Shown here one piece after another: positions 1 to 40,972 of a stretch of DNA of 52,646 nucleotides. The DNA is from a virus: positions 1 to 52,646 of IMG/VR virus record IMGVR_UViG_3300043570_001329. The stretch is one strand, 5' to 3'. The notes under the pieces are model-generated. The model saw only the letters and a list, made by a program, of their open reading frames with translations. It was not told the DNA's origin and did not search any database. Both the position numbers and the translations under genes were made by a program. Positions within the stretch are counted from its first letter, which is position 1. Each line of letters starts with the position of its first letter.

Positions 1-3000
1 TCCAGTACCAACAATAGCTGTGCTATTCGCAATGAAAGCTGTCCCAACAGTGTGGCTAGATGCATTAACGCTACCAGTAACATTGGCGTAACCAGTACCA
101 ACAATAGCTGTGCTATTCGCAATGAATGTTGTTCCCACAGTTAGTAAGGCACTATTGACACTAGTGGATACATTAGCATATCCTGTAACTGTCAACGCAG
201 TAGTATTAGCATTCAGGGCAGTGGTGGTGAATGATGCTGCATTCACTGTGCCAGTATGATACAGCCCAGTAGTATTTGCTCTGTAATTAGTACTGATGGT
301 ATACGAGGCAGCGTTGATTGTTCCTGTATGATACACCCCAGTAGTATTGGCTATGAACGACGTACCAACAGTTAACAAAGCACTATTCACACTGGTTGTT
401 AGATTAGCTGCACCACCCACAAGGTTAGCGGTTATCGTATTGGCACTAAAGTTACTATCTGTATCCCTAGCAACCACAACAGATGCAGTTGACGTACTTG
501 CTGCGTTAACATTGAATTGAGATCCATTCAGGTACAGATAGCTACCAGCCGTATAGAGGCCTTGACCAGAGAACTGTACAAATGCAACTGGATCTGTTCC
601 TATAGTAGTTACTTCATCAGTCTGCACCCATCCGGTGCTATTGTATAATGTTCCGTTTGTGACAAATGTAAAATCACCACCTGCAATCTCAATAGCAGTA
701 TCAAAATCAGTGGCTCTGGTGAGAACAGTTCCTCCGGTGGCCCATGTGTATATTCCGTTGTGAGCAGTGTTGGATTGATTCTTGACCAGCACTCTATCAC
801 CATTCACAAGAGAGTGACTATCTAGTGAGGTCAGAGCTGTACCAAGAGTCAGAGTAGCTCCTACTCCAGACGTACCATTATTGTATGTGACACTACCACC
901 AGTTATCACTGCCAGAGTATCTGTTGTTGCCACATGGCATGCCTCGTGAACATGCAAACCTTGCTGGAAAGCATCAACATACGCCTTAGTAGCTGCATCC
1001 TGATTATTAATTGGCGCGCTGAGCCCAGTAATATAATTGTTGCCCATTGCAATGTTAGCGGAGAACGTAGCACCATTGGCATCAAGATTCCAACGCTGAG
1101 TTGAAGATCCTAGTGACGATCCAACTGAGTTTGAAGTTGGAATTATACCTGTTGAATTAGCAACTAACCCAGATGTGGTGAACGATGACGCATTGACTGT
1201 GCCAGTATGGTATATTCCAGTAGTATTTGCTCTGTAAATAGTATTAATTGTGTACGATGCGGCATTGACTGTGCCAGTATGGTATATTCCAGTAGTATTT
1301 GCTCTGTAACTAGTATTAATTGTGTACGATGCGGCATTGACTGTGCCAGTGTGATAGGCCCCAGTAGTATTAGCAACAAACGAGGTACCTACCGTCAAAA
1401 GTGCCGAGTTAACACTGGTTGTCATATCGGCAACTGTACCAGACACCGTACCACTAAAGTCTCCCGTATTAGCACTCAATATCCAACGTGATACTGAATT
1501 TCCAAGTAGTATAGTGTTTGACGCTGGAGTAAACCGTGTACCTGTATTCTGAACATAAGATGCGGCTACTGTTCCTCCAAGATATCCAGCATTATTAGCG
1601 TCAAGGGTAGCGATGTATGAGGTATTAACATGGACACCAGTAGTGTTAGATATTATACCGGTGCCAGCTACAACATCAACAGTTCCAGTGGATGTGATTG
1701 GTCCTCCACTAAGCCCATTACCGGTAGTAATAGACGTCACTGTACCAGTAGTAACACTGCCCCAATAAGGAGATCCTGTAGATCCGTTGGACTTTAGTAC
1801 CTGTCCCGATGTACCTACAGTAGCGTTAGCAGATAATGGAGTAGTGACAGTTAGCTGGGAAGAGTTGGCAATAAAGTCGGTGCCTACTGATAACGCTGCC
1901 GAGTTAACACTAGTAGACATATTAGCTACTGTGCCAGATACTGTACCTGTAAAGTCTCCGCTATTAGCAGACAACACCCATCTTGCAGTAGAGTTTCCAA
2001 GCAGAGTAGTGTTTGATGATGGAGTAAACTGCGTGCCTGATATTACCAGATTGCCTGAAAGAGTTCTAGAATCAGTATTCTGAACATATGATGCTGCAGC
2101 AGTTCCTCCAAGGTATCCAGCGTTGTTGGCGTCTAGTGTGGCCACATATGAGGTATTAACATGAATACCTGTTGCGTTGGATACAATACCAGTTCCAGCA
2201 TTGGCAAAAACCCCGCTTGAATTTGATATTATACCGTTGTTAGCAACCACATCAATGGTGCCAGTAGATGTGATTGGACCACCTGTCAGTCCGTTGCCAG
2301 TAGCAACTGAGGTTACGGTACCAGTAGTGACTGCTGCCCAGTAAGGAGATCCGGTAGAACCGTTAGATATGAGCGCATGCCCAGAAGTACCAGTGACTCC
2401 GTTTGCAGACAAAGGAGTGCCAACAGTTAGTTGGGATGAGTTGACAGAAAAGCCAGAACTGACTGACAAGGTATTGCTGATAGATACAGTGTTACTAGCT
2501 TTATTAAACGTAAATCCAGCAGTTGCGTTTAACGATGTTCCACCATCATTGAATTGAATCTGTGTATCAGATCCACCTGCAGTTGCACCAGGAACGTCCC
2601 AGTAAGGAGATCCGGTAGATCCGTTAGACTTCAACACCTGTCCCGATGTACCAGTACCACCATTGGCAGTTACTGGAGTGGTAATAACAAGAGCAGAGGC
2701 ATTAGCAATAAAAGCAGACCCAACAGTAAGTGCTGCGGAATTGACACTGATGGTTGCATTTGCATATCCAGTAATATCAGTGTTACCTGATGTCCATGAG
2801 TCGGAAGTCTCGTTCCACAGGAAACTTACGTTTGATAGTGTGCCTCTGTTGACTTCTAATCCAGCATTCTCTGATGGACTTATCAGCCCCAAATCAGCAT
2901 TCAGAGTTACTATGTTATCCCCAACATTGAGTGTTGTGGTATTGATGTAGGTAGTTGTACCGGATACGGTTAGATTGCCAGATATATTAACATCAACTAG

Positions 3001-4134
3001 GTTAGCAGTGCCACTAATATTTGCACCATCCACACCCGTGATTAACCCAGAGGCAGTGACTGTGTTTGCATATACTACAAATCTACCAATTGTATTTCCT
3101 AGTAGAATTGTGTTAGACGTTGGAGCAATCGATGTAGCGTTAGCGACAACTCCCGCAGTAGTAATACTAGCTGCATTAACTGTACCGGTGTGGAAGGCCC
3201 CAGTAGAGTTAGCTACGAACGATGAACCAATTGTAAATGACGTTGCGTTAGCACGATCACTCAAGAGTAGAGAGTCTACACTCAGAGTATTGTTTAGTTT
3301 ATTGAATACAAAATTATTTGATCCTTCAAACGTACCAGCGTCGTTGAACATCACATTAGTGTTTGATCCTGCGCCAACAGGACCTGTTGCAAATATTGTA
3401 ACATCAATTTCAGCGTCAACTGATGGTGCACTACTGAAGGTTAGAATGTATCCTGATACACTATAAGCTGATTTATGTTGACTTACACCATCAATAACCA
3501 CTAGTATCTGACTCTCACTATCAGGAGTCACACTCAGGCTATAATTAGTATTAGATCCATTACCAACAAAGGTATCGACAGTGACATCGATGCCCATGAG
3601 ACGATTTGAGGTTGTGGTGTAGCAAGTAACATCGACTTCAGCATCAAGTGATGGAGCACTACTAAAAATAATTAAATTACCAGATACACTATAAGCTGAT
3701 TTATGTTGACTTACACCGTCAATAATTACAGCTACTGCTGATTCGTCGTACGGAGTTGTGCTTAGTGTAAATTGTGTGTTGGTTCCGTTACCAGTAAAAA
3801 CATCTGTAACAAGATCCGTACCGGTTAGCACTAATTCGCCAACCACTGCATCGGCCCAGTAAGTAGATGTTCCATTAGAAGCCAGTACCTGGGTGTTTTG
3901 TCCCAAAGACCCGTTAGCTACTAACTTATTGATTACGGTGTTTGCTGCTACCGATAGATTCTGAAGGTTAGCCCCAATCTCAAAGTAGCCTGTTCCGTTA
4001 GAGGAATACAGTTTACCATCTGGCACATTGAGAGCCAGCTCTCCGGTATCAATATACCGAGAATTACTAGAGTTGGTTGTATTTGGAGTACGGCCGGATA
4101 CCGTCGTACGTTTGACTTGAAATTTATTAGCCAT
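1..4134 (-). CDS. Large tail-fibre-like protein, 3' end outside window
   Basis: The frame is open from an ATG at 4134 to the left edge (1378 codons, no stop), so the C-terminus is missing. The start is supported by a GAGGGG Shine-Dalgarno at about 4140-4145. The N-terminus (MANKFQVKRTTVSG, then YIDTGELALNVPDGKLYSSNG) resembles the virion-attachment end of fibres in T4-like phages and parallels the start of the 772-residue fibre at 4366-6684. The rest is low-complexity, rich in N, S, T, A, G and V, with repeats of the type AFIANSTAIVGTGYAN and a duplicated 76-residue beta-rich domain near the N-terminus. Such composition is typical of trimeric fibre shafts. It is the last gene of a series of fibres and probably binds the host surface. 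Receptor and C-terminal tip cannot be judged. Confidence 0.85.
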   Translation of the reverse strand, partial: MANKFQVKRTTVSGRTPNTTNSSNSRYIDTGELALNVPDGKLYSSNGTGYFEIGANLQNLSVAANTVINKLVANGSLGQNTQVLASNGTSTYWADAVVGELVLTGTDLVTDVFTGNGTNTQFTLSTTPYDESAVAVIIDGVSQHKSAYSVSGNLIIFSSAPSLDAEVDVTCYTTTSNRLMGIDVTVDTFVGNGSNTNYSLSVTPDSESQILVVIDGVSQHKSAYSVSGYILTFSSAPSVDAEIDVTIFATGPVGAGSNTNVMFNDAGTFEGSNNFVFNKLNNTLSVDSLLLSDRANATSFTIGSSFVANSTGAFHTGTVNAASITTAGVVANATSIAPTSNTILLGNTIGRFVVYANTVTASGLITGVDGANISGTANLVDVNISGNLTVSGTTTYINTTTLNVGDNIVTLNADLGLISPSENAGLEVNRGTLSNVSFLWNETSDSWTSGNTDITGYANATISVNSAALTVGSAFIANASALVITTPVTANGGTGTSGQVLKSNGSTGSPYWDVPGATAGGSDTQIQFNDGGTSLNATAGFTFNKASNTVSISNTLSVSSGFSVNSSQLTVGTPLSANGVTGTSGHALISNGSTGSPYWAAVTTGTVTSVATGNGLTGGPITSTGTIDVVANNGIISNSSGVFANAGTGIVSNATGIHVNTSYVATLDANNAGYLGGTAAASYVQNTDSRTLSGNLVISGTQFTPSSNTTLLGNSTARWVLSANSGDFTGTVSGTVANMSTSVNSAALSVGTDFIANSSQLTVTTPLSANATVGTSGQVLKSNGSTGSPYWGSVTTGTVTSITTGNGLSGGPITSTGTVDVVAGTGIISNTTGVHVNTSYIATLDANNAGYLGGTVAASYVQNTGTRFTPASNTILLGNSVSRWILSANTGDFSGTVSGTVADMTTSVNSALLTVGTSFVANTTGAYHTGTVNAASYTINTSYRANTTGIYHTGTVNAASYTINTIYRANTTGIYHTGTVNASSFTTSGLVANSTGIIPTSNSVGSSLGSSTQRWNLDANGATFSANIAMGNNYITGLSAPINNQDAATKAYVDAFQQGLHVHEACHVATTDTLAVITGGSVTYNNGTSGVGATLTLGTALTSLDSHSLVNGDRVLVKNQSNTAHNGIYTWATGGTVLTRATDFDTAIEIAGGDFTFVTNGTLYNSTGWVQTDEVTTIGTDPVAFVQFSGQGLYTAGSYLYLNGSQFNVNAASTSTASVVVARDTDSNFSANTITANLVGGAANLTTSVNSALLTVGTSFIANTTGVYHTGTINAASYTISTNYRANTTGLYHTGTVNAASFTTTALNANTTALTVTGYANVSTSVNSALLTVGTTFIANSTAIVGTGYANVTGSVNASSHTVGTAFIANSTAIVGTG
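2..126. repeat. Direct repeat spaced 90 bp inside fibre gene
   Basis: A 35-nt stretch at 2-36 recurs identically at 92-126, and the sequence between is in register (90 bp, 30 codons). The encoded unit contains AFIANSTAIVGTGYAN. The same unit recurs in the 772-residue fibre, so it is a structural repeat of the shaft rather than a non-coding element. Confidence 0.8.
1191..1343. repeat. 72-bp tandem repeat inside fibre gene
   Basis: The motif cattgactgtgccagt starts at 1191, 1263 and 1335, an exact 72-bp period (24 codons). The first two units are almost identical over their full length (about 2 differences); the third diverges after its first 20 bases. The high identity implies recent duplication or ongoing homogenisation of shaft repeats. 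Confidence 0.85.
3455..3726. repeat. Duplicated 76-residue fibre domain
   Basis: About 40 nt starting at 3455 (gatacactataagctg...) recur at 3683, 228 bp apart, in frame. Each copy encodes a domain containing IDGVSQHKSAYSVSG followed by FSSAPSxDAE, preceded by a GNGxNTxFxLSxTP stretch. This is a beta-rich fibre domain present twice in tandem near the N-terminus of the truncated fibre. Confidence 0.8.
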
Positions 4135-4147
4135 GTGGCCCCTCAAA

Positions 4148-4163
4148 AACTCTATATAGAGTT
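4148..4163. other. 16-bp perfect palindrome between two genes
   Basis: AACTCTATATAGAGTT is a perfect palindrome overlapping the stop codon of the 67-residue coiled-coil gene and lying just upstream of the ribosome site of the big fibre. Read on the minus strand it forms a 6-bp stem with ATAT loop followed by a short T run, so it could be a weak attenuator or an mRNA processing or stability hairpin before the fibre gene. Confidence 0.4.
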
Positions 4164-4365
4164 AAAAACTTGAATCAGGTGTATCTAATTTTTTCTTTGA
4201 ATTCTTTTCCAGCTTACTACTTATGGTGGTTAATTCTTCAGCTAGCTTGGCCGACCTGGCCTCGGCTAGCTGAAGACGCACTTCCATCATTATAATTTTT
4301 GCTGTTAGATCTTCAATCCAGGATTTTTGTTTTGCAATATATACATTAATAAATTCAGCGTCCAC
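4162..4365 (-). CDS. Small coiled-coil structural partner (67 aa)
   Basis: Starts with GTG immediately after the TAA of the upstream fibre gene (TAAGTG), with no other good start nearby. Residues about 15-55 are predicted coiled coil by eye (leucine and alanine heptads, many K and E), followed by a basic tail and the end TPDSSF. A similar small coiled-coil gene sits at 12367-12594 before another fibre, so each may be a fibre-associated or chaperone-like protein. Function unknown. Confidence 0.65.
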   Translation of the reverse strand: MDAEFINVYIAKQKSWIEDLTAKIIMMEVRLQLAEARSAKLAEELTTISSKLEKNSKKKLDTPDSSF

Positions 4366-6684
4366 TTAGAAAGTTCCCCCATCAAGAGTTGCATACACCA
4401 GAGCTGTTCCGTTAGATTGAAGAACAAATCCTTCGGATCCCAGACTCAATTTAGAATACGTGTTTGTTGCATTACCAACCAGTATCTCATTAACTCCAAT
4501 TGTAGACAACCCGGTACCACCACTTGTTCCTGGTAGTGCGGTACCCAAAGATATTGAGTTGGCTGTAATATTAACAGCAACAGTACTGTTGGCAGTTAGC
4601 GTAACAGCAGTAGAGTTAGATACCAGTGCATGAGCTTCAATAAATGATACTAACGTTGCTTTATTATATGTACCAGCGCCAATATCAACAGTAGTAGTTG
4701 GTGCTGTTTGGAGGCCATCAAACAATCTGAACTTACCGTCAGTAGCATCTCTGAAGAAACCAGTGTGTTCGGTAGGATCTGCCCCGCTTTGGTAACTACC
4801 AAAGAATCCAATATCCAATGTATCAGAAATGAGGTTGTTCGAAGCTAATTGAATTAATGAGTCAGTTACCGCTAAGGTTGCCACATTGATTGTCACTAGC
4901 GAACCGGAAACAACCAAGTTACCTACAATATTTACATCTTTATCAATATACAAATACTCGGAATGTACATTCTGAGCAAAAACCTTGAGGTATCGATTTG
5001 CATTATTACCTAGACTATATGTAACATTAGCATTTGGTATAATATCAGTATTAACTGTAGCCTTAATTGATACAACATCACTAGAATCAGATCCAATGAT
5101 AGTATTACCAGTGGCTGAAAATTCTGCTGCAGACGTATTACCAATAGACAATGTACCATCAGTAGCTGATATACTTGTAGTACCAATTGTGATAGTCGAT
5201 CCAGCTAGATATAAATCTTTCCAACGCTTAGCACTGGTACCAAGGTCATAGGTAACATTGGCAGAAGGAACAAGGCTTGATGCTACTCCAGCATTAACCG
5301 TCACACTGTCGGCAGAACTACTACCAACAGTCACATCGTTGTTCATCGTTACTACCGTTGAGTTGGCTATAAAGTCAGTACCAACCCTGAACGACGCGGC
5401 ATTTACAAGCCCTGTATGATATGCTCCAGTACTATTGGCTATAAAGTCAGTACCAACCGTGTGACTAGATGCATTGACACTGCCAGTAATATTAGCGTAA
5501 CCAGTACCTACTATTGCAGTACTATTAGCAATAAATGCTGTACCAACTGTTAGCATAGCAGAATTAACACTTGTTGCTATATTAGCAAAACCGGTACTAA
5601 CAATAGCAGTGCTGTTGGCTATGAATGCAGAACCTACTGTGTGACTAGCTGCATTGACAATACCAAACTGTACATCACTTGTTGTTCCTACTGCTTGACC
5701 AATGTGTACGCCAGTCGCGTTAGAAACAACACCAGTACCAGCAACAACTGCTATTGTTGGAGCCGAACCTTCACCAGTACCTGATCCTGAAATACCATCA
5801 CCAGCAGTAATTGTTGCGACGTAGTCTCCAGTGGTATCTGTTCCAAGCACCGTTGCATCTGCTGAAATAGTAGCAACACCGGCCGAATCAATCGTCACAT
5901 CACCAGACAATGAGACGTTTCTAAAAAATCCTGTTGAGTTAGCAACTAGAATTTGGCCAGTAGTTGCTGACGATACTGCTACGTCTGTAAGATCATTGAG
6001 AGCTGTTATTTCTGTTGCTGGTGATGCCCAATGAATTCCTCCAGTGGAGTTTGCAGTTAGCAGCTGGCCCGTAGTACCATGAGCACTGTTAGCATAAATT
6101 TTAGTAATTACAGCATTGGCAGCTGTTACCGTAAAGCCTGAAACAGAGTTTGTTGATACTGACGATGAGTTGATTACAGTATTGACTGTACTATTACCAA
6201 TGTTCAAGACCGATGTATTCAGACTTACATTTGCACCAACAGTTATGGTGTTTGATACGTTAAGTGTGTTTGATCCAGTGGTGAACGTAAACCCAGCTGA
6301 TCCTGCAAGAGTGCCAGCATTATTAAATTGAACTTGAGTATCTGATCCAGCTATTCCTGAAGTAGGATCTGTCCAGAATAATCCTCCAGTGCTATTGGCT
6401 ACAATTATTTGTCCAGTAGTACCATGAGCACCATTGGCATAAATTTTAGTAGTTACTAGATTTGCAGTCTTTACGCTATCAATATAACTGGTAGAGTTAG
6501 TAACCAGAGCTTGATTTGCTGTGAGTACACCGGGGTTACGTCTTCCTCCGATTGCCTCAACTAGATTGTTACTACCAATATAGAGTACATCACCATTGGC
6601 CGTATAGGCCATTTCACCATTAGCTAATGACGTTGGTAGCGCTGTAGTGAGCGACTTTTTAATTTGAATCAGATTATTTGCCAT
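4366..6684 (-). CDS. Tail-fibre-like protein (772 aa)
   Basis: Complete ORF. The N-terminus (MANNLIQIKKSLTTALPTSL, ANGEMAYTANGDVLYIGSNN) is a fibre-attachment signature shared in layout with the truncated fibre downstream: a short basic strand, then GEMAYT and a GDVLYIG hairpin. Residues about 100-480 consist of AFIANSTAIV and VNASSHTVG units. Residues 490-660 hold a repeated NVTYxLG plus RWKDLYLAG or RYLKVFAQN motif common in fibre shafts. The C-terminus has a YQSGADPTEHTGFFRDATDGKFRLFD domain, frequent in fibres of marine myophages (recall), and ends DGGTF like the 87-residue gene upstream. No S74 chaperone is visible. A late promoter lies 58 nt upstream. Confidence 0.85.
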   Translation of the reverse strand: MANNLIQIKKSLTTALPTSLANGEMAYTANGDVLYIGSNNLVEAIGGRRNPGVLTANQALVTNSTSYIDSVKTANLVTTKIYANGAHGTTGQIIVANSTGGLFWTDPTSGIAGSDTQVQFNNAGTLAGSAGFTFTTGSNTLNVSNTITVGANVSLNTSVLNIGNSTVNTVINSSSVSTNSVSGFTVTAANAVITKIYANSAHGTTGQLLTANSTGGIHWASPATEITALNDLTDVAVSSATTGQILVANSTGFFRNVSLSGDVTIDSAGVATISADATVLGTDTTGDYVATITAGDGISGSGTGEGSAPTIAVVAGTGVVSNATGVHIGQAVGTTSDVQFGIVNAASHTVGSAFIANSTAIVSTGFANIATSVNSAMLTVGTAFIANSTAIVGTGYANITGSVNASSHTVGTDFIANSTGAYHTGLVNAASFRVGTDFIANSTVVTMNNDVTVGSSSADSVTVNAGVASSLVPSANVTYDLGTSAKRWKDLYLAGSTITIGTTSISATDGTLSIGNTSAAEFSATGNTIIGSDSSDVVSIKATVNTDIIPNANVTYSLGNNANRYLKVFAQNVHSEYLYIDKDVNIVGNLVVSGSLVTINVATLAVTDSLIQLASNNLISDTLDIGFFGSYQSGADPTEHTGFFRDATDGKFRLFDGLQTAPTTTVDIGAGTYNKATLVSFIEAHALVSNSTAVTLTANSTVAVNITANSISLGTALPGTSGGTGLSTIGVNEILVGNATNTYSKLSLGSEGFVLQSNGTALVYATLDGGTF

Positions 6685-7344: not shown

Positions 7345-10300
7345 TTTTCATCTCGTTGATTTCTTGTTTTAAGTCTTTAATGGCTTCGATTAGCACACCT
7401 ATAATGTCATTATAGGAAACCTTCATAAAGCCGTCTTCGTTGGTGTGTACCACGTTAGGTAGGATATCTTGGATCTCCTGAGCTATAACACCATATCCTT
7501 TATGACCACTATCTTTAAATTCATACGATACCCCTCTCATTCGAGATACCATATCCAATCCACCATTAATTGTTTGTATATTGGTTTTTAGTCTCTCATC
7601 TGACGTTGTCGTCATGATAGTAGCACTGAGAGTACCGGATCCAACAGCAAAGGTAAAACTTGCTGAACCTGCAAATGCTCCTGCATTGTTATACTGCACA
7701 TGAGTACTAGAACCACCAGGAACCCCACCAGAAGCGGGAGCAGCGGCCCAATATGTATTAGCAGTACCGCCACTATATAACATCTGGCCGGCTGTTCCAA
7801 ACGAACCGTTTACACTTAGTCTGGTACCAACTGTGAGAGTTGTGCCTGTAGACAAGCTGGTACTAACGCTAGCAGAGCTACCGTAGGTACTTGATCCACC
7901 AACTAGAGTAGATGCCGCATTAAAAATGTTGGCGTTGGCGGTTCCAGCAATTGCTAAAGAGTTACCAGCAATGGATCCTGCAATGGTCGCTGATGCTCCA
8001 TCTAATATTCCGGTTGCAGTTATATCACCACCGTTTATTGGACCTACGACAGTCAGTGTATTTGAGGTTTTAATGTAGGTGAATCCAGTATCCCCATTAA
8101 ACACTCCTGAATCGTTAAACTGTACCTGGGTATTGGAGCCACCAGGAGTACCACCACCAGCACTAATAGTTGACCAGTAAGGAGCTCCAATAGTGCCGTT
8201 AGATGTTAATACCTGACCAGATGTTCCTGTAGTTCCATTAGCCGTCATTGGATTGGATTCAATAGTTAATCCACCATTGGCAGTCAATACTCCTCCAAAA
8301 CTTGCAGTATCACCAAATATGTCAAATCGTTGGGTTCCTGTACCTAACGCGCTACCTAAGGTATTACTAGCTGGATACACCCCAGACGTATTGACTGTTA
8401 CACTTGTACCAACAAACAACGTTGGATTTGAGCCACTGGTAATAGATACGTTCCCAGAGAACGTAGCATTATTACCAACTGCTAGGGTTCCAATAACATC
8501 AGCGTTTGCAGCGTACACATCCCACCGAGCAGTTAGTGTGCCTAGATCAGTCCCATTGGCATACGGGCTAACTCCGGTAGTTCCACTAGTGCGAATACCT
8601 GTAGAATCTATTACTGTATTAACAGTGCTATTACCAACAGCAATCACTGTCGAGTTAGCAATCAATCCATTGGACGTTGAGTTGATTGACGCAATTTGGT
8701 ATGATGAGGCATTAATAGATCCTGTAAGATCCATCCCACCTGCAGCAGTAATTAATCCCGAAGCGTGGATTGTGTTAGCGCTAATAATCCATCTTGCTGT
8801 ACTATTTCCAAGCGTCGAAGCGGTTACATTAGAGAACGGTGTTACTGTTTGGTTAGCCCCATACAAAAATACTCCACTGTTATTTACAGTCTGAATATTT
8901 TTCTTTTCTAATGTGTCGCCCGATACAGATGGGGAGTTAGTAGTGAGAACAATTTGAGTAGAGTTGCTGATTGCTTGTACAGTAAAATACGCTGTGCAGC
9001 TTGAGAACTTGACTATATCCCCGGCCACTAGATCATTGGTGAATACGGAACCAGTTCCAGATACCACGGTTGTACCAATAGTGGTTACTGTTCCGGTCAC
9101 TGCGCCAGAAGTGTTTGAAGCATACGACTGCGGTGCAATCAGTGTGTTGGTTGTTGTGTTACCTAATAGGACATTGCCGGAGAAATTACCACTGTTTGCA
9201 GTCAATACCCAACGAGATATTGTATTGCCCAGTATCTGACCAACTGTATTTGAAATAGGTACTAGTGCTGTTGCATTAGCACTAATGCCAGAAGTAGTAA
9301 AGGATGCTGCATTGGCAACTCCAGTAGAATATACTCCGGTTGTATTTGCTATGAACGCCGTACCAACTGTTAGTAGTGCTGAATTAACACTAGTCGATAC
9401 GTTAGCTGCACCAGACACTTCTAAAGCAACTGTTGGAGCAGTATTGTTGATACCTACTCTATTATTGACAGAATCAACAAAAAGTACACCAGAATCAAAA
9501 TTAGAATTACCAGCAATTGTTTGAAGGCTACCGCTGAGAGTTGTATTACCACTAAGAGTAACCAGTCCAGCTATCCCTAGATTACCTCCAATGTTTGCAT
9601 TCCCTTGAATATTAGCTGTACCACTAATATCTGTATCCCCAGTTACTCTTAAAGCAACTCCAGGAGCAGTATTATTAATACCTACTCTATTATTGACCGA
9701 ATCAACAAAAAGCACACCAGAGTCAATATTGGTGTTGGCTGCTCCAATTGTTAGTACGTTAGCTGTTGAGTTGGTTGTTAGTCCAAAAATGGCATTTGTA
9801 AGTGAGGTGTTACCATTAGCAGTAAGTAATCCAGTATGAAACACCCCGGTAGTGTTAGCTATAAATGCATCCCCTACAGTCAGCAAGGCACTGTTAACAC
9901 TGGTGGATATATTAGCTGCGCCGGTCACAGACAAAGCAACACCTGGAGCTGTATTATTGATACCCACTCTATTATTAGTAGCATCTACAAAGAAAGTGCC
10001 CGAATCTATATTGGTGTTAGCAGAGCCAATTGTCAATACACTAGCTGTTGAGTTGGTAGTTAATGCCAGCAATGAGTTGGTAAGCGAAGTATTACCGTTA
10101 GCAGTTAGGTTTCCTGTTACCGTAGCGCTGCCCTGAACATTGGCAGTAGCGCTGATATCAACATCACCAGTTACACGCAGAGCAACTCCAGGAGCAGTAT
10201 TATTGATACCTACTCTGTTATTGATAGAATCAACAAACAACACACCAGAATCAACTGATACGTTAGCAGCTCCAACAGTCACAACATTGGATGTGGAGTT

Positions 10301-36533: not shown

Positions 36534-36562
36534 TAAAAAAAGGGGCCTAGGCCCCTTTAATT
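36534..36562. terminator. Bidirectional intrinsic terminator
   Basis: A perfect GC palindrome GGGGCCTAGGCCCC (36542-36555) with A run on the left and T run on the right, placed exactly between the converging ends of the tape-measure gene and gp32. On the minus strand it is followed by TTTTTTT, a strong terminator; the plus-strand tail (TTTAATTT) is weaker. Confidence 0.9.
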
Positions 36563-37497
36563 TAGTCGTCGTTGATTAGCGACTTGAATGCTGCAATATC
36601 GTCATCATCCTCGTCTGCATCCCAAGGCGCTTTAGCCTGTGGTTTAGCAGCCACACTAGCTACCTTAGCAGGCTTGGCTACCTGCTCAAACGTCTCACCA
36701 TCATCAATCGTACGATCAGCAATGTTCTGTGATTGACGCGGAGCTCCACCATCCAAAGCCAGCACACGATAGAGCTTCTGCTTCAACTCATCATAGCTCT
36801 TGAAGTGCTTGTCATCCAAGAATTCTTTGAGTGAATTCTCTTGCTTCCAGATACTTTCAAGTTCACTGTCGTCATCCAACAGCGGGGCTGGAGCATCAAA
36901 CTCAGACTTATCGTAGTTACGATATCCTTCCACATTACGAATCTTCAGCTTGAAGTTGGCACCAGCCCAAAAGTCAAAAGGATTGACTGGCTTCTCATCT
37001 TCAAACTCAGGGTTCATTGATGCGTTCAGAATATCAAAGATTTTCTTGCCATACTTAAACAAGAACACCTTACCTTCGTTCTGAGGATTAGCTTTATCGC
37101 TAACAACATAGATGTTGCTGATAAAGTTGAGCTTACGCTTCTGTGCGCGTACTTGAGCTTTGTTTGCTTCAATACCGGTGGCCCACAGTTGACTATTATA
37201 CTCTGATACGGGATCAGCTTTGCCAACAGTAGTGAGAGAGTTCTCAATATACCATTGACCACCAGGACCTTTGAAGCCATGGTTAAAGATACGTACGAAT
37301 GGGACATCTTCTCCATCTGGAGCAGGGAGGAAGCGAATAACAGCATATCCGTTACCTGACTTATCAACAGCAGGCTGCCAGAAGCGTGTGTCTGGCTCGC
37401 GGGGATTGCCCTCCGGATTTGCTAACTTGGATACTTGTTGGGTGATCTTATCGAGACTTGTCTTAGTAGACATTTTGAGATTTGCAAAACTTGACAT
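36562..37497 (-). CDS. gp32: ssDNA-binding protein gp32, zinc cysteines absent (311 aa)
   Basis: Contains the T4 gp32 core: DTRFWQPAVDKSGNGYAVIRF, PFVRIFNHGFKGPGGQWYIEN, KRKLNFISNIYVVSDK, KVFLFKYGKKIFDILNASM and PVNPFDFWAGANFKLKI. The C-terminus is the usual acidic tail (DADEDDDDIAAF) that contacts replication partners. In T4 a zinc ion is held by His64 and three cysteines (C77, C87, C90). Here the aligned positions are Ser, Asp and Ser (WYIENS, ADPVSE), and the protein has no cysteine. gp32 coats single strands in replication, recombination and repair. AAAGGA SD supports the start. Confidence 0.95.
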   Translation of the reverse strand: MSSFANLKMSTKTSLDKITQQVSKLANPEGNPREPDTRFWQPAVDKSGNGYAVIRFLPAPDGEDVPFVRIFNHGFKGPGGQWYIENSLTTVGKADPVSEYNSQLWATGIEANKAQVRAQKRKLNFISNIYVVSDKANPQNEGKVFLFKYGKKIFDILNASMNPEFEDEKPVNPFDFWAGANFKLKIRNVEGYRNYDKSEFDAPAPLLDDDSELESIWKQENSLKEFLDDKHFKSYDELKQKLYRVLALDGGAPRQSQNIADRTIDDGETFEQVAKPAKVASVAAKPQAKAPWDADEDDDDIAAFKSLINDD

Positions 37498-38172: not shown

Positions 38173-38405
38173 ATAGGTAGTTTCTGGGTTTTAGGTAGAT
38201 AGTTGAGATGCTCTGCTTCATCCTGAATAGATGCTTTGAGTTTGGAATTATTTTTAATAAGAGATGCCGCAGTTTCAATATCTACCCCATTCTTCTCACA
38301 AAAATATACTACCGCATCAATATACTCCATTTTCTTTTCTAAGACAAGTGTTTCAATCTCTTTCGAGAATTCAACTATACTACTAAAATTAAGGTCTGTG
38401 ATCAT
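38169..38405 (-). CDS. gp33: Late transcription coactivator gp33 (78 aa)
   Basis: Resembles the core of T4 gp33 (112 residues): a KKMEYIDAVVYFCEKNGVDI helix pair against T4 EEFGMSYLEATTAFLEENSI, then IQDEAEHLNYLP against IQSEAIDENLLR. gp33 binds the polymerase beta flap and connects the gp55-type sigma and the gp45 clamp for late transcription. Order gp32-gp59-gp33 is as in T4. The presence of gp33 agrees with CATAAATA-type late promoters found here. Overlaps the lysin gene by 17 nt. Confidence 0.8.
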   Translation of the reverse strand: MITDLNFSSIVEFSKEIETLVLEKKMEYIDAVVYFCEKNGVDIETAASLIKNNSKLKASIQDEAEHLNYLPKTQKLPI

Positions 38406-38916
38406 GCTTTTTTTTCCTAGAGTAAAAAATGTGCTGCCCGATCTTTATATTTCTATGTAGCTTCCAACGGGGATTAATATACGCAGCATGAAAGAACAAA
38501 GATCCCTTAGTTGGGTCGTATCTCTTACTGGTGTTATGATGCTCGGCTATTTCTCTAGCCATATTTTTAATGTGCTGATATTGGTCTTGGTTGTTAATGG
38601 CAGGACCCCTGCCCTTCTGGCAGACCCAGGAGAACTGGCATACACTACCCTCTCGCTGATACACAACACCGCAAATAGTTTTAGGAAAGGCTGCATCCGC
38701 AACTCTATTCATAGTTACAAACCCAACAGCCTTGATACCCATATCGGGTTCGTTCTTGGCTTCGAAGTACATATTCTTGGCAAGGCACTCTAGCTGCTTT
38801 TCCGATATACGGGCCACCGTATGAGGCGTTTCCGCAGAGACATTGTCTTCTACGTTATTGCAGGCGAATGCGAGTGAGCACAGACCAAGAAGTGTAGTAA
38901 GCACTAGCTTTTTCAT
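38389..38916 (-). CDS. Exported SleB/CwlJ-type cell-wall hydrolase (175 aa)
   Basis: Start at ATG 38916 (AAAGAGGTAG SD) rather than the longer frame to 39021, since it gives a clear signal peptide MKKLVLTTLLGLCSLAFAC (signal or weak lipobox; Cys19). The mature part holds the Hydrolase_2 signature CLAKNMYFEAKNEPDMGIKA with Glu52 and Glu56, VGFVTMNRV, then VCQFSWVCQKGRG and SLFFHAAYINPRW. The family cuts cortex or murein glycan strands. As a phage protein it is probably the endolysin, reaching the periplasm by Sec. A late promoter is about 140 nt upstream. No holin was recognised. Confidence 0.85.
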   Translation of the reverse strand: MKKLVLTTLLGLCSLAFACNNVEDNVSAETPHTVARISEKQLECLAKNMYFEAKNEPDMGIKAVGFVTMNRVADAAFPKTICGVVYQREGSVCQFSWVCQKGRGPAINNQDQYQHIKNMAREIAEHHNTSKRYDPTKGSLFFHAAYINPRWKLHRNIKIGQHIFYSRKKKHDHRP

Positions 38917-39058
38917 GTTGACTACCTCTTTGTTTATTTTATTATTTTGATACGTAGGAATACAACTTTCAGTATACTGAATATTGATGGTCACAATGTC
39001 ATCCTTATCAAGTGCTGCCAATTGCGAACTGGGCCGTAGACCCTATTGTAGATAGTAG

Positions 39059-39066
39059 TATTTATG
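39059..39066 (-). promoter_or_regulatory. T4-like late promoter, CATAAATA, for the lysin
   Basis: Minus-strand CATAAATA between the tmRNA and the hydrolase gene, just at the end of the tmRNA coding piece. It is the third identical octamer upstream of a late gene, and lysis is a late function. Confidence 0.6.
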
Positions 39067-39360
39067 TCTGAGGAATTTGGGACCTGCTTCTGTTGCCAAG
39101 TGCAGGTCAGACTCCGGTCAGTGTTTAAGCTGCCAGCGCGTACTTATTATCGTTTGCGTTTATGGTTTTTGCTTGATTTACAGTCATCGCCTACTGTGTT
39201 GCCGTCTCTACTATCTCACGCTGTCGAAACCAGGTCATCCCCATCAGAAACACACTACTCTCTTTATGGTCGCTGCCGCGGAACAGCATCGCAATATGTT
39301 TCTGGTGGAGATGGAGGGAATCGAACCCTCGTCCAACATGCCTTCGCTTTGAAGGGATTA
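39066..39360 (-). ncRNA. ssrA: Circularly permuted (two-piece) tmRNA
   Basis: Read on the minus strand, an acceptor piece comes first: hairpin CCTTC/GAAGG (39341-39355), T arm GAGGG-TTCGATT-CCCTC, then CATCTCC and encoded ACCA ending at 39303. A 60-nt linker follows, then the coding piece from 39242: GGGGATG pairs with CATCTCC (one G-U), TGGTTTCGAC is the classic tmRNA D-region, and CAGCGTG (39223-39217) pairs fully with CATGTTG (39340-39334) as P2. The tag frame is 39157-39125, GCA to TAA, ANDNKYALAA. A downstream pseudoknot is formed by GACCTGC/GCAGGTC and TTGG/CCAA, closed by GTCT/AGAC to 39066. The 5' limit is uncertain. It rescues stalled ribosomes. Confidence 0.93.
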
Positions 39361-39386
39361 CAACAATTCTTTACTACAATTACTAT

Positions 39387-39461
39387 TTAGCGATTAGCAA
39401 TGTACATTGTGATTTCAAAGCCAAAACGCAGATCTGTTGCTGCTGGTGTAGTCCAATTCAT
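39387..39461 (-). CDS. pqqA: PQQ precursor peptide PqqA (24 aa)
   Basis: A 24-codon ORF with a strong SD (AGGAG at 39468-39472, 6 nt spacing). The peptide begins MNWTTPAATDLRFG and ends FEITMYIANR. The TDLRxGFEVTMYxANR end is diagnostic of PqqA, with Glu16 and Tyr20 in the ExxxY motif; PqqE and PqqD crosslink these two residues to build pyrroloquinoline quinone. No pqqB-E genes occur in the window, so the host must supply them. The gene ends about 25 nt before the permuted tmRNA, on the same strand. It is too short for standard ORF calling. Confidence 0.9.
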   Translation of the reverse strand: MNWTTPAATDLRFGFEITMYIANR

Positions 39462-39568
39462 TTAAATCTCCTAGAGTAGAGGCACTATTGCCTGTTATAT
39501 GTATACCATATACGTGGTGTTCTGTGTAGTGATAATCCTCAAACCCATGTACGTTGTATTACCATATT

Positions 39569-40012: not shown

Positions 40013-40972
40013 TTATGCCATCTCTGCCATTGCAACGGCTGTCTCAAGAGCTTTTACTTTGAGGCCTTTATTAGGACCATACCAGGCTGATGTAAGGCGA
40101 CCTTCCTGTGTACGGCCAATAACGTGGTCAGTTAGGTAGGTTACAGCGTTGAATGCTGACCACCACGAACCTTCAGCAAACGATGCACCAGGTTGCTGTT
40201 GCAGTGCTTGCATTGCAAGAGTAGCTGACTGGGACAATTCCTTCTTTTGCTTAGTTTCTTCGTTCTTAGAGCGGCCATATGCATTGACAGGGAAGATACG
40301 ATTGAAGTATTCCTTGACTGTCTCGCTCTTATATTTCTTAGAACCCAAGAATTTAGCCATTTCCTTGTACTGTGCCAGCTTATCAGAGGCAACACCCAGC
40401 ATCTGCTTCACCTGATCGCCATCAAACTGGCGGCGATGGGACACTTTTACCATGTTATCTTCTTTAGAAGAGAGTGACAGCGTGAGGGTATTATTGCAAA
40501 CCACGCGAATTGGAGTGAATCGCACGTCGATTGACTGACCAAACTTGTGGGGGAGTGTAAAAAGAAGGTAGGAATCGACCTGATCCCCACCAAAAACCTC
40601 AAAAGACTCATTAATCTTAGCAAGAGCCCATACAATCTGGCCGTTTTTAAGGGATCCTGCCGTATGCATGGCCATATCACCCGAGCAAACGAAGTCATTG
40701 AAGAACTCGAATGCTTCTTCATTCTGCAGGGGGTTCCAATCTTGCGACACTACATCCAGGATACGGCCATCAGACGAGCGTACCAGGGCATCTTTGCCGG
40801 TATACACTTGTTGTCCTTGGATGTTTGCAAAGGTTTGAATCTTATCTACTGACCAGTCAAGGCCTGCTGATTCGAGCATTTGTGCTGGGGACAGGTCTGC
40901 TGGGACTTCTTTGCCAAGACCGTGCCAAGGGGTTTCGCCTGCGTACGCCATTGTTTCAACTAAATGTGCCAT
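40013..40972 (-). CDS. DUF932 phage/plasmid-like protein (319 aa)
   Basis: Starts MAHLVETMAYAGETPWHGLG, with GLDWSVDKIQTF, SQDWNPLQNEEAFEFFNDFV, SYLLFTLPHKFGQSIDVRF, TPIRVVCNNTLTLSL, all typical of DUF932 (TIGR03299) proteins carried by phages and plasmids. GGAG 9-12 nt upstream fits the ATG. Role unknown. Early promoter P1 (41023-41051) stands directly upstream, so it probably leads the operon that runs to 39569. Confidence 0.85.
   Translation of the reverse strand: MAHLVETMAYAGETPWHGLGKEVPADLSPAQMLESAGLDWSVDKIQTFANIQGQQVYTGKDALVRSSDGRILDVVSQDWNPLQNEEAFEFFNDFVCSGDMAMHTAGSLKNGQIVWALAKINESFEVFGGDQVDSYLLFTLPHKFGQSIDVRFTPIRVVCNNTLTLSLSSKEDNMVKVSHRRQFDGDQVKQMLGVASDKLAQYKEMAKFLGSKKYKSETVKEYFNRIFPVNAYGRSKNEETKQKKELSQSATLAMQALQQQPGASFAEGSWWSAFNAVTYLTDHVIGRTQEGRLTSAWYGPNKGLKVKALETAVAMAEMA

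Follow-up and report, generated by a model that had tools for sequence, protein, structure and literature searches.

One PqqA peptide is consumed for each PQQ that is made, and PqqB-E are catalysts already present in the host. Carriage of the precursor gene by a phage is not new: pqqA was described in detail in 2020 on VP_266, a T4-like Methylophilaceae phage population from Lake Baikal that pairs it with methanol dehydrogenase, and was proposed to aid PQQ-dependent methanol oxidation (PMC7678222); phage pqqA also appears in one list of auxiliary metabolic genes (AMGs; PMC13188868), and no other accounts were found in the literature searched. The paper describing the Melnitz phages mentions PQQ only as a medium additive, and the gene went unnoticed there (PMC9004378); the paper on MEP401/402 makes no mention of pqqA. 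Phage P19250A is said to encode none of the AMGs treated in PMC7678222; contrary to that statement, it does carry pqqA, at 28153-28085. On the bacterial side, Methylophilaceae chromosomes hold 3-12 copies of pqqA and usually one pqqBCDE set (PMC4109929). Literature searches that included few subscription papers and preprints yielded no report of pqqA across cultured methylophages, of the frequency of phage pqqA, of its stand-alone nature, of copies of the Burkholderiales class, or of linkage to tmRNA and tRNA genes.

Here we characterize a free-standing pqqA on a virus contig (IMG/VR record IMGVR_UViG_3300043570_001329; the whole stretch of 52,646 nucleotides analysed is termed the window), document the occurrence of related copies in isolate and metagenomic phages, and weigh the roles that such a gene might serve.

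An intact pqqA abutting a permuted tmRNA

The window contig carries T4-type baseplate, tail-tube, tape-measure, gp32 and gp59 genes and is a T4-like freshwater virus, its lineage being marked by a T4 gp32-like ssDNA-binding protein (36562..37497, minus strand; phrog_224, E 5.5e-116; PF08804). The pqqA coding sequence occupies 39387..39461 on the minus strand and comprises 24 codons and a stop, the strand read from 39461 to 39387 giving MNWTTPAATDLRFGFEITMYIANR; the plus-strand reading of the same interval was meaningless on translation and was rejected. This host-like metabolic gene has phage genes on either side, with a DUF932 protein gene upstream (40013..40972, minus; PF06067, E 4.9e-40) and an endolysin-like gene next downstream (38389..38922, minus; phrog_938, E 1e-22).

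A sequence-only reading of this DNA had proposed a 24-codon phage pqqA, to be discarded if it matched no PqqA model. Both models matched above their cut-offs: Pfam PF08042 gave 38-40 bits on the window peptide (40.1, cut-off 21.1; E 1.6e-10 in the record), and the NCBIfam equivalog TIGR02107 gave 39.6 bits against 20. A chance match is excluded, because PF08042 finds nothing in any of 14 control genomes. Residues W3, P6, R12, G14, E16 and Y20 are all present, the Glu and Tyr of the ExxxY motif (those that become the PQQ skeleton) standing at positions 16 and 20 as had been noted. The ribosome site that had been called strong is an AGGAG on the minus strand at 39468..39472, six bases ahead of the ATG. 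The ORF thus has the form of a short peptide of about 22-26 residues with its own start, comprising 24 codons, an ATG and the AGGAG, with conservation confined to the ORF; judged by its residues and profile scores, it is a clear, genuine member of the PqqA family. A search of solved structures with the peptide returned no match, and a promoter scan upstream of the gene recognised none.

The same reading had placed no other pqq gene nearby, and we concur: tblastn for pqqB-E found none in the window (best E 0.70), nor was a PqqE found there, and the linked pqqB-E genes of a pqqABCDE operon were likewise absent from 3.0 Mb of flanks around 362 related loci (described below). It had the interval right, while leaving unstated the strand, which is minus, and overlooking an adjoining permuted two-piece tmRNA gene (ssrA) of betaproteobacterial type. 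Predicted by ARAGORN at 39034..39395 on the minus strand, directly downstream of pqqA, this gene scores above the gathering thresholds of two covariance models (RF01850, 158.2 bits over 39069-39414, gathering score 84; RF04321, 151.6 bits over 39125-39365, gathering score 47) and includes a tag reading frame, ANDNKYALAA*, at 39125..39157 on the minus strand (coding part at 239-271 of the tmRNA gene). From the pqqA stop to the start of the RF04321 match the gap is 21 bases.

Distribution of pqqA among isolate and metagenomic phages

A tblastn search of 50,697 INPHARED phage records, at E up to 10, matched 12. Nine are phages of Methylophilales or Methylophilaceae (P19250A, Venkman, MEP301, MEP401, MEP402 and four Melnitz isolates), spanning a Kyanoviridae myovirus, a Zobellviridae phage and unclassified phages; pqqA was present in every methylophage in the sense of every methylophage record that the search returned, which is not a full census of methylophages. 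One further match is the Manatee Spring podovirus. The remaining two, both named 'Acinetobacter phage MD-2021a', were dropped: the record read (CAKLQF020000010.1), which holds ppk and has pqqBCDE after the match, looks bacterial, and CAKLQH020000055.1 is matched in the same way. No phage of Pseudomonas or of another named PQQ user was returned at this threshold. The INPHARED copies read are all complete ORFs with ribosome sites. As had been anticipated, the gene is easily missed by annotation: in six INPHARED regions none was labelled pqqA, four having nothing annotated under the gene and two a reverse-strand 'hypothetical protein'. Venkman (2985-3069 of the stretch compared) and the Manatee Spring podovirus (2107-2190) are 90.6% identical over 85 bp covering pqqA, with nothing else common to both in the 6 kb Venkman stretch; the comparison suggests that pqqA may move alone.

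Scanning of IMG/VR with degenerate-codon DNA patterns revealed, besides the window record, at least 355 loci with a free-standing pqqA of 23-26 codons among the matches listed. The set assembled for analysis comprised 367 loci, six from INPHARED and the rest from IMG/VR, one being the window's own record; not every locus represents an independent population. A complete pqqA ORF was found in 362 of the 367, and for the other five no complete ORF was called. Each of the 363 phage pqqA ORFs starts with ATG, is 23-26 codons long and contains ExxxY, and 362 are preceded by an SD-like motif. Each of 50 whole records sampled had a single pqqA scoring above the cut-off, and no PqqE reached its cut-off in any of them; a methanol-dehydrogenase family gene occurred in one record (G427, 72 kb). 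Counts with codon-fixed 21-mers, calibrated on the first 120 copies, give an estimate of the total to an order of magnitude only: a pattern fitting 12 of the 120 matched at least 120 contigs, corresponding to 1,200 or more copies, and one fitting three of the 120 matched 13 contigs, or about 500 copies, so that the IMG/VR total lies between the high hundreds and over a thousand. The carriers are phages of several lineages, because the two longest ORFs in each of 52 sampled loci matched 174 phage families, among them terminases, portals and head proteins of several different kinds.

Several individual contigs merit description. Two are of jumbo-phage size (356 and 364 kb). Three loci encode a PqqA of the MKWET.. 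type, which resembles that of Methylococcales and suggests that phages of methanotrophs may also carry the gene. G427 is a phage-like contig with ribonucleotide reductase, GroEL and ATP-dependent DNA ligase genes; near its pqqA, at 990-2864, 2944-5784 and 9071-9790 of the locus read, lie genes for a PQQ methanol/ethanol dehydrogenase, a formate dehydrogenase alpha subunit and a quinoprotein-associated SoxYZ-like carrier, a group that is possibly a one-carbon oxidation cassette.

Proximity to stable-RNA genes recurs beyond the window. Excluding its record, a tmRNA lies within 100 bp of pqqA in 26 loci, on the same strand in all 26; the tmRNA comes first in 24, with pqqA 50-80 bp after it, and pqqA comes first, as in the window, in two. 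Three further loci have a nearby tmRNA missed by ARAGORN, and in others pqqA sits beside or within tRNA arrays, exemplified by a 127 kb phage contig with pqqA at 4770-4841 between tRNAs at 4633-4706 and 4889-4961. In Melnitz, pqqA lies 14 bp ahead of a tRNA-Leu. Expression of pqqA is probably coupled to a stable-RNA (tmRNA/tRNA) transcription unit.

The C-terminal residues of PqqA allow some discrimination among hosts. In a host-genome sample confined to PqqA classes with MRFGFE, which the search pattern demanded, all 53 Methylophilaceae peptides end in EVTMYV(M/C)N(K/R), all 22 of Piscirickettsiaceae in EVTMYICNR, and those of Burkholderiales mostly in EITMYIA(N/T)R. The window peptide ends in EITMYIANR, is identical to Paraburkholderia PqqA at 22 of 24 positions and shows 59-73% identity to the methylophage copies; on these features it is of the Burkholderiales class. 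This class and the betaproteobacterial tmRNA, the two lines of evidence bearing on the host, point to Burkholderiales. Because the peptide is of that class, the host is probably not a methylotroph and more likely a PQQ-using heterotroph. Similarity of the tmRNA did not point to a host genus: among 399 genomes of the order to which a Rhodoferax genome belongs, the best match reached only 75% over 165 bases. The link to methanol oxidation drawn in the sequence-only reading therefore fits the methylophages that carry pqqA and is not clearly apt for the window phage, with its peptide of the Burkholderiales class.

Selective constraint and the possible roles of phage pqqA

Among window-type copies, pairwise identity is 84% over the ORF, 28-30% in the flanks and 46% in the 20-base stretch that includes the ribosome site. 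The search seeds left 11 codons free, over which pN/pS is 0.23-0.45, and 220 distinct phage pqqA sequences show no change at W, P or R. (The window's own record, matched at 100%, is left out of the count of relatives but was kept in the pooled selection and flank statistics, with little effect.) These measures show, at the level of sequence, that phage pqqA is under purifying selection. Since the seeds contained the Glu and Tyr codons, loss of either residue was searched for separately: scans for first-base changes within the RFGFE[VI]TMY frame gave three and zero hits, the three being chance matches with no PqqA context, and within that scope no IMG/VR copy with a changed Glu or Tyr codon was found, against hundreds that keep both.

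In line with the raised precursor supply proposed in the sequence-only reading, we consider it likely that the phage supplies PqqA as the consumable part of PQQ synthesis and that PqqB-E of the host complete the cofactor. The infected cell would make an intact precursor peptide from the phage gene; PqqD and the radical SAM enzyme PqqE of the host would cross-link Glu16 to Tyr20; and a host protease, PqqB and PqqC would turn the cross-linked peptide into PQQ. The tiny PqqA would need continual synthesis, such that a shut-down of host transcription might deplete it first while the enzymes persist, and 75 bases could then sustain PQQ for periplasmic quinoprotein dehydrogenases of the host, these being methanol dehydrogenase in methylotrophs and, where the hosts are Burkholderiales, enzymes of the alcohol, glucose or XoxF type. 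The chromosomal copies described above support this logic, because Methylophilaceae multiply the precursor gene and not the enzymes, and the pairing of pqqA with a methanol dehydrogenase family gene in G427, and with methanol dehydrogenase in VP_266, counts for it as well, as do the nine methylophages among the tblastn matches and the lack of matches in phages of other named PQQ users. The literature on PqqA as a limit to PQQ is mixed; in Acetobacter, overexpression of pqqAB raised PQQ only 29%, and that of pqqABCDE eightfold (PMC7936290). PQQ is moreover a cofactor and not a substrate, which makes a need for more of it during a single infection cycle hard to explain; that no promoter was recognised ahead of the window gene also speaks against this role. 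Intact family membership, purifying selection, absence of the enzyme genes, widespread and repeated occurrence and linkage to tmRNA or tRNA are shown; we infer processing by host enzymes, a limiting supply of PqqA and a benefit to the phage.

Other roles were weighed against precursor supply. The peptide arrives without its processing enzymes, as it would were it a decoy that occupies PqqD/PqqE and so blocks PQQ synthesis or diverts SAM chemistry; a decoy could dispense with one of the cross-linked residues, however, and the failure to find any IMG/VR copy with a first-base change in either codon, together with the pairing of pqqA with methanol dehydrogenase, which needs PQQ, in two phage populations (VP_266 and G427), makes this very improbable. 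PQQ might instead be made for a different end, as a redox protectant or for excretion to close PqqU, a PQQ-binding receptor of the outer membrane, against superinfecting phages, a proposal for which a passage in PMC12124388 (coli) gives support; the phage lineages with pqqA are unrelated and can hardly be expected to have one receptor in common, and we regard such a purpose as unlikely.

Two further explanations were considered. In T4-like relatives pqqA lies beside a tmRNA or among arrayed tRNAs, as would a neutral passenger, a short host-derived segment that travels with these RNA genes. Purifying selection and invariant residues speak against this, as do the smaller methylophages, in which the region read around pqqA has no RNA gene annotated, and the confinement of the Venkman and Manatee Spring likeness to pqqA itself; we give it little credence. 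That the contigs are instead mis-sorted bacterial DNA, host fragments with orphan pqqA copies of the kind hosts do have (PMC4109929), draws some plausibility from the two bacterial-looking 'Acinetobacter' records. It is already refuted for the window, with phage genes on both sides of pqqA, and for the isolates, nine isolate phage genomes carrying the gene; the longest ORFs of the 52 sampled loci, among which families of terminase, portal, head and replication proteins abound, leave it a negligible probability overall.

Significance and relation to known systems

Beyond the window, we lean somewhat towards a general view in which precursor-only supply is a widespread, repeatedly acquired strategy, with pqqA near-universal and overlooked in phages whose hosts are aquatic, PQQ-dependent Betaproteobacteria (methylotrophs and Burkholderiales) and, in T4-like phages, built into a tmRNA/tRNA unit. 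If this is true, PQQ metabolism in an infected cell would have its weak point in the supply of PqqA. Through PQQ enzymes, methylotrophs and Burkholderiales of aquatic habitats process much of the dissolved carbon, both one-carbon and organic, and if their phages routinely carry the precursor of PQQ, viral infection would act directly on that step in carbon processing. A gene of some 70 bases that most annotation omits would then belong on lists of viral metabolic genes, and the cultured phages make testable an old question, namely whether the PQQ of a living cell is limited by how much PqqA is supplied.

Compared with the host pqqABCDE operon, the phage copy encodes the same peptide family with the same conserved residues, but comes without the enzyme genes. 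It also resembles the orphan copies of pqqA on Methylophilaceae chromosomes (PMC4109929), where the precursor gene is likewise multiplied without the enzymes, although those copies are chromosomal and not viral. VP_266 and the window are alike in bearing pqqA on a T4-like phage; VP_266, however, is a methylotroph phage with a methanol dehydrogenase, whereas the window has no dehydrogenase in view, a peptide of the Burkholderiales class and a pqqA that abuts a tmRNA. Melnitz (PMC9004378) is T4-like as well and combines a permuted two-piece tmRNA with pqqA as the window does, the tmRNA being alphaproteobacterial in type in Melnitz and betaproteobacterial in the window.
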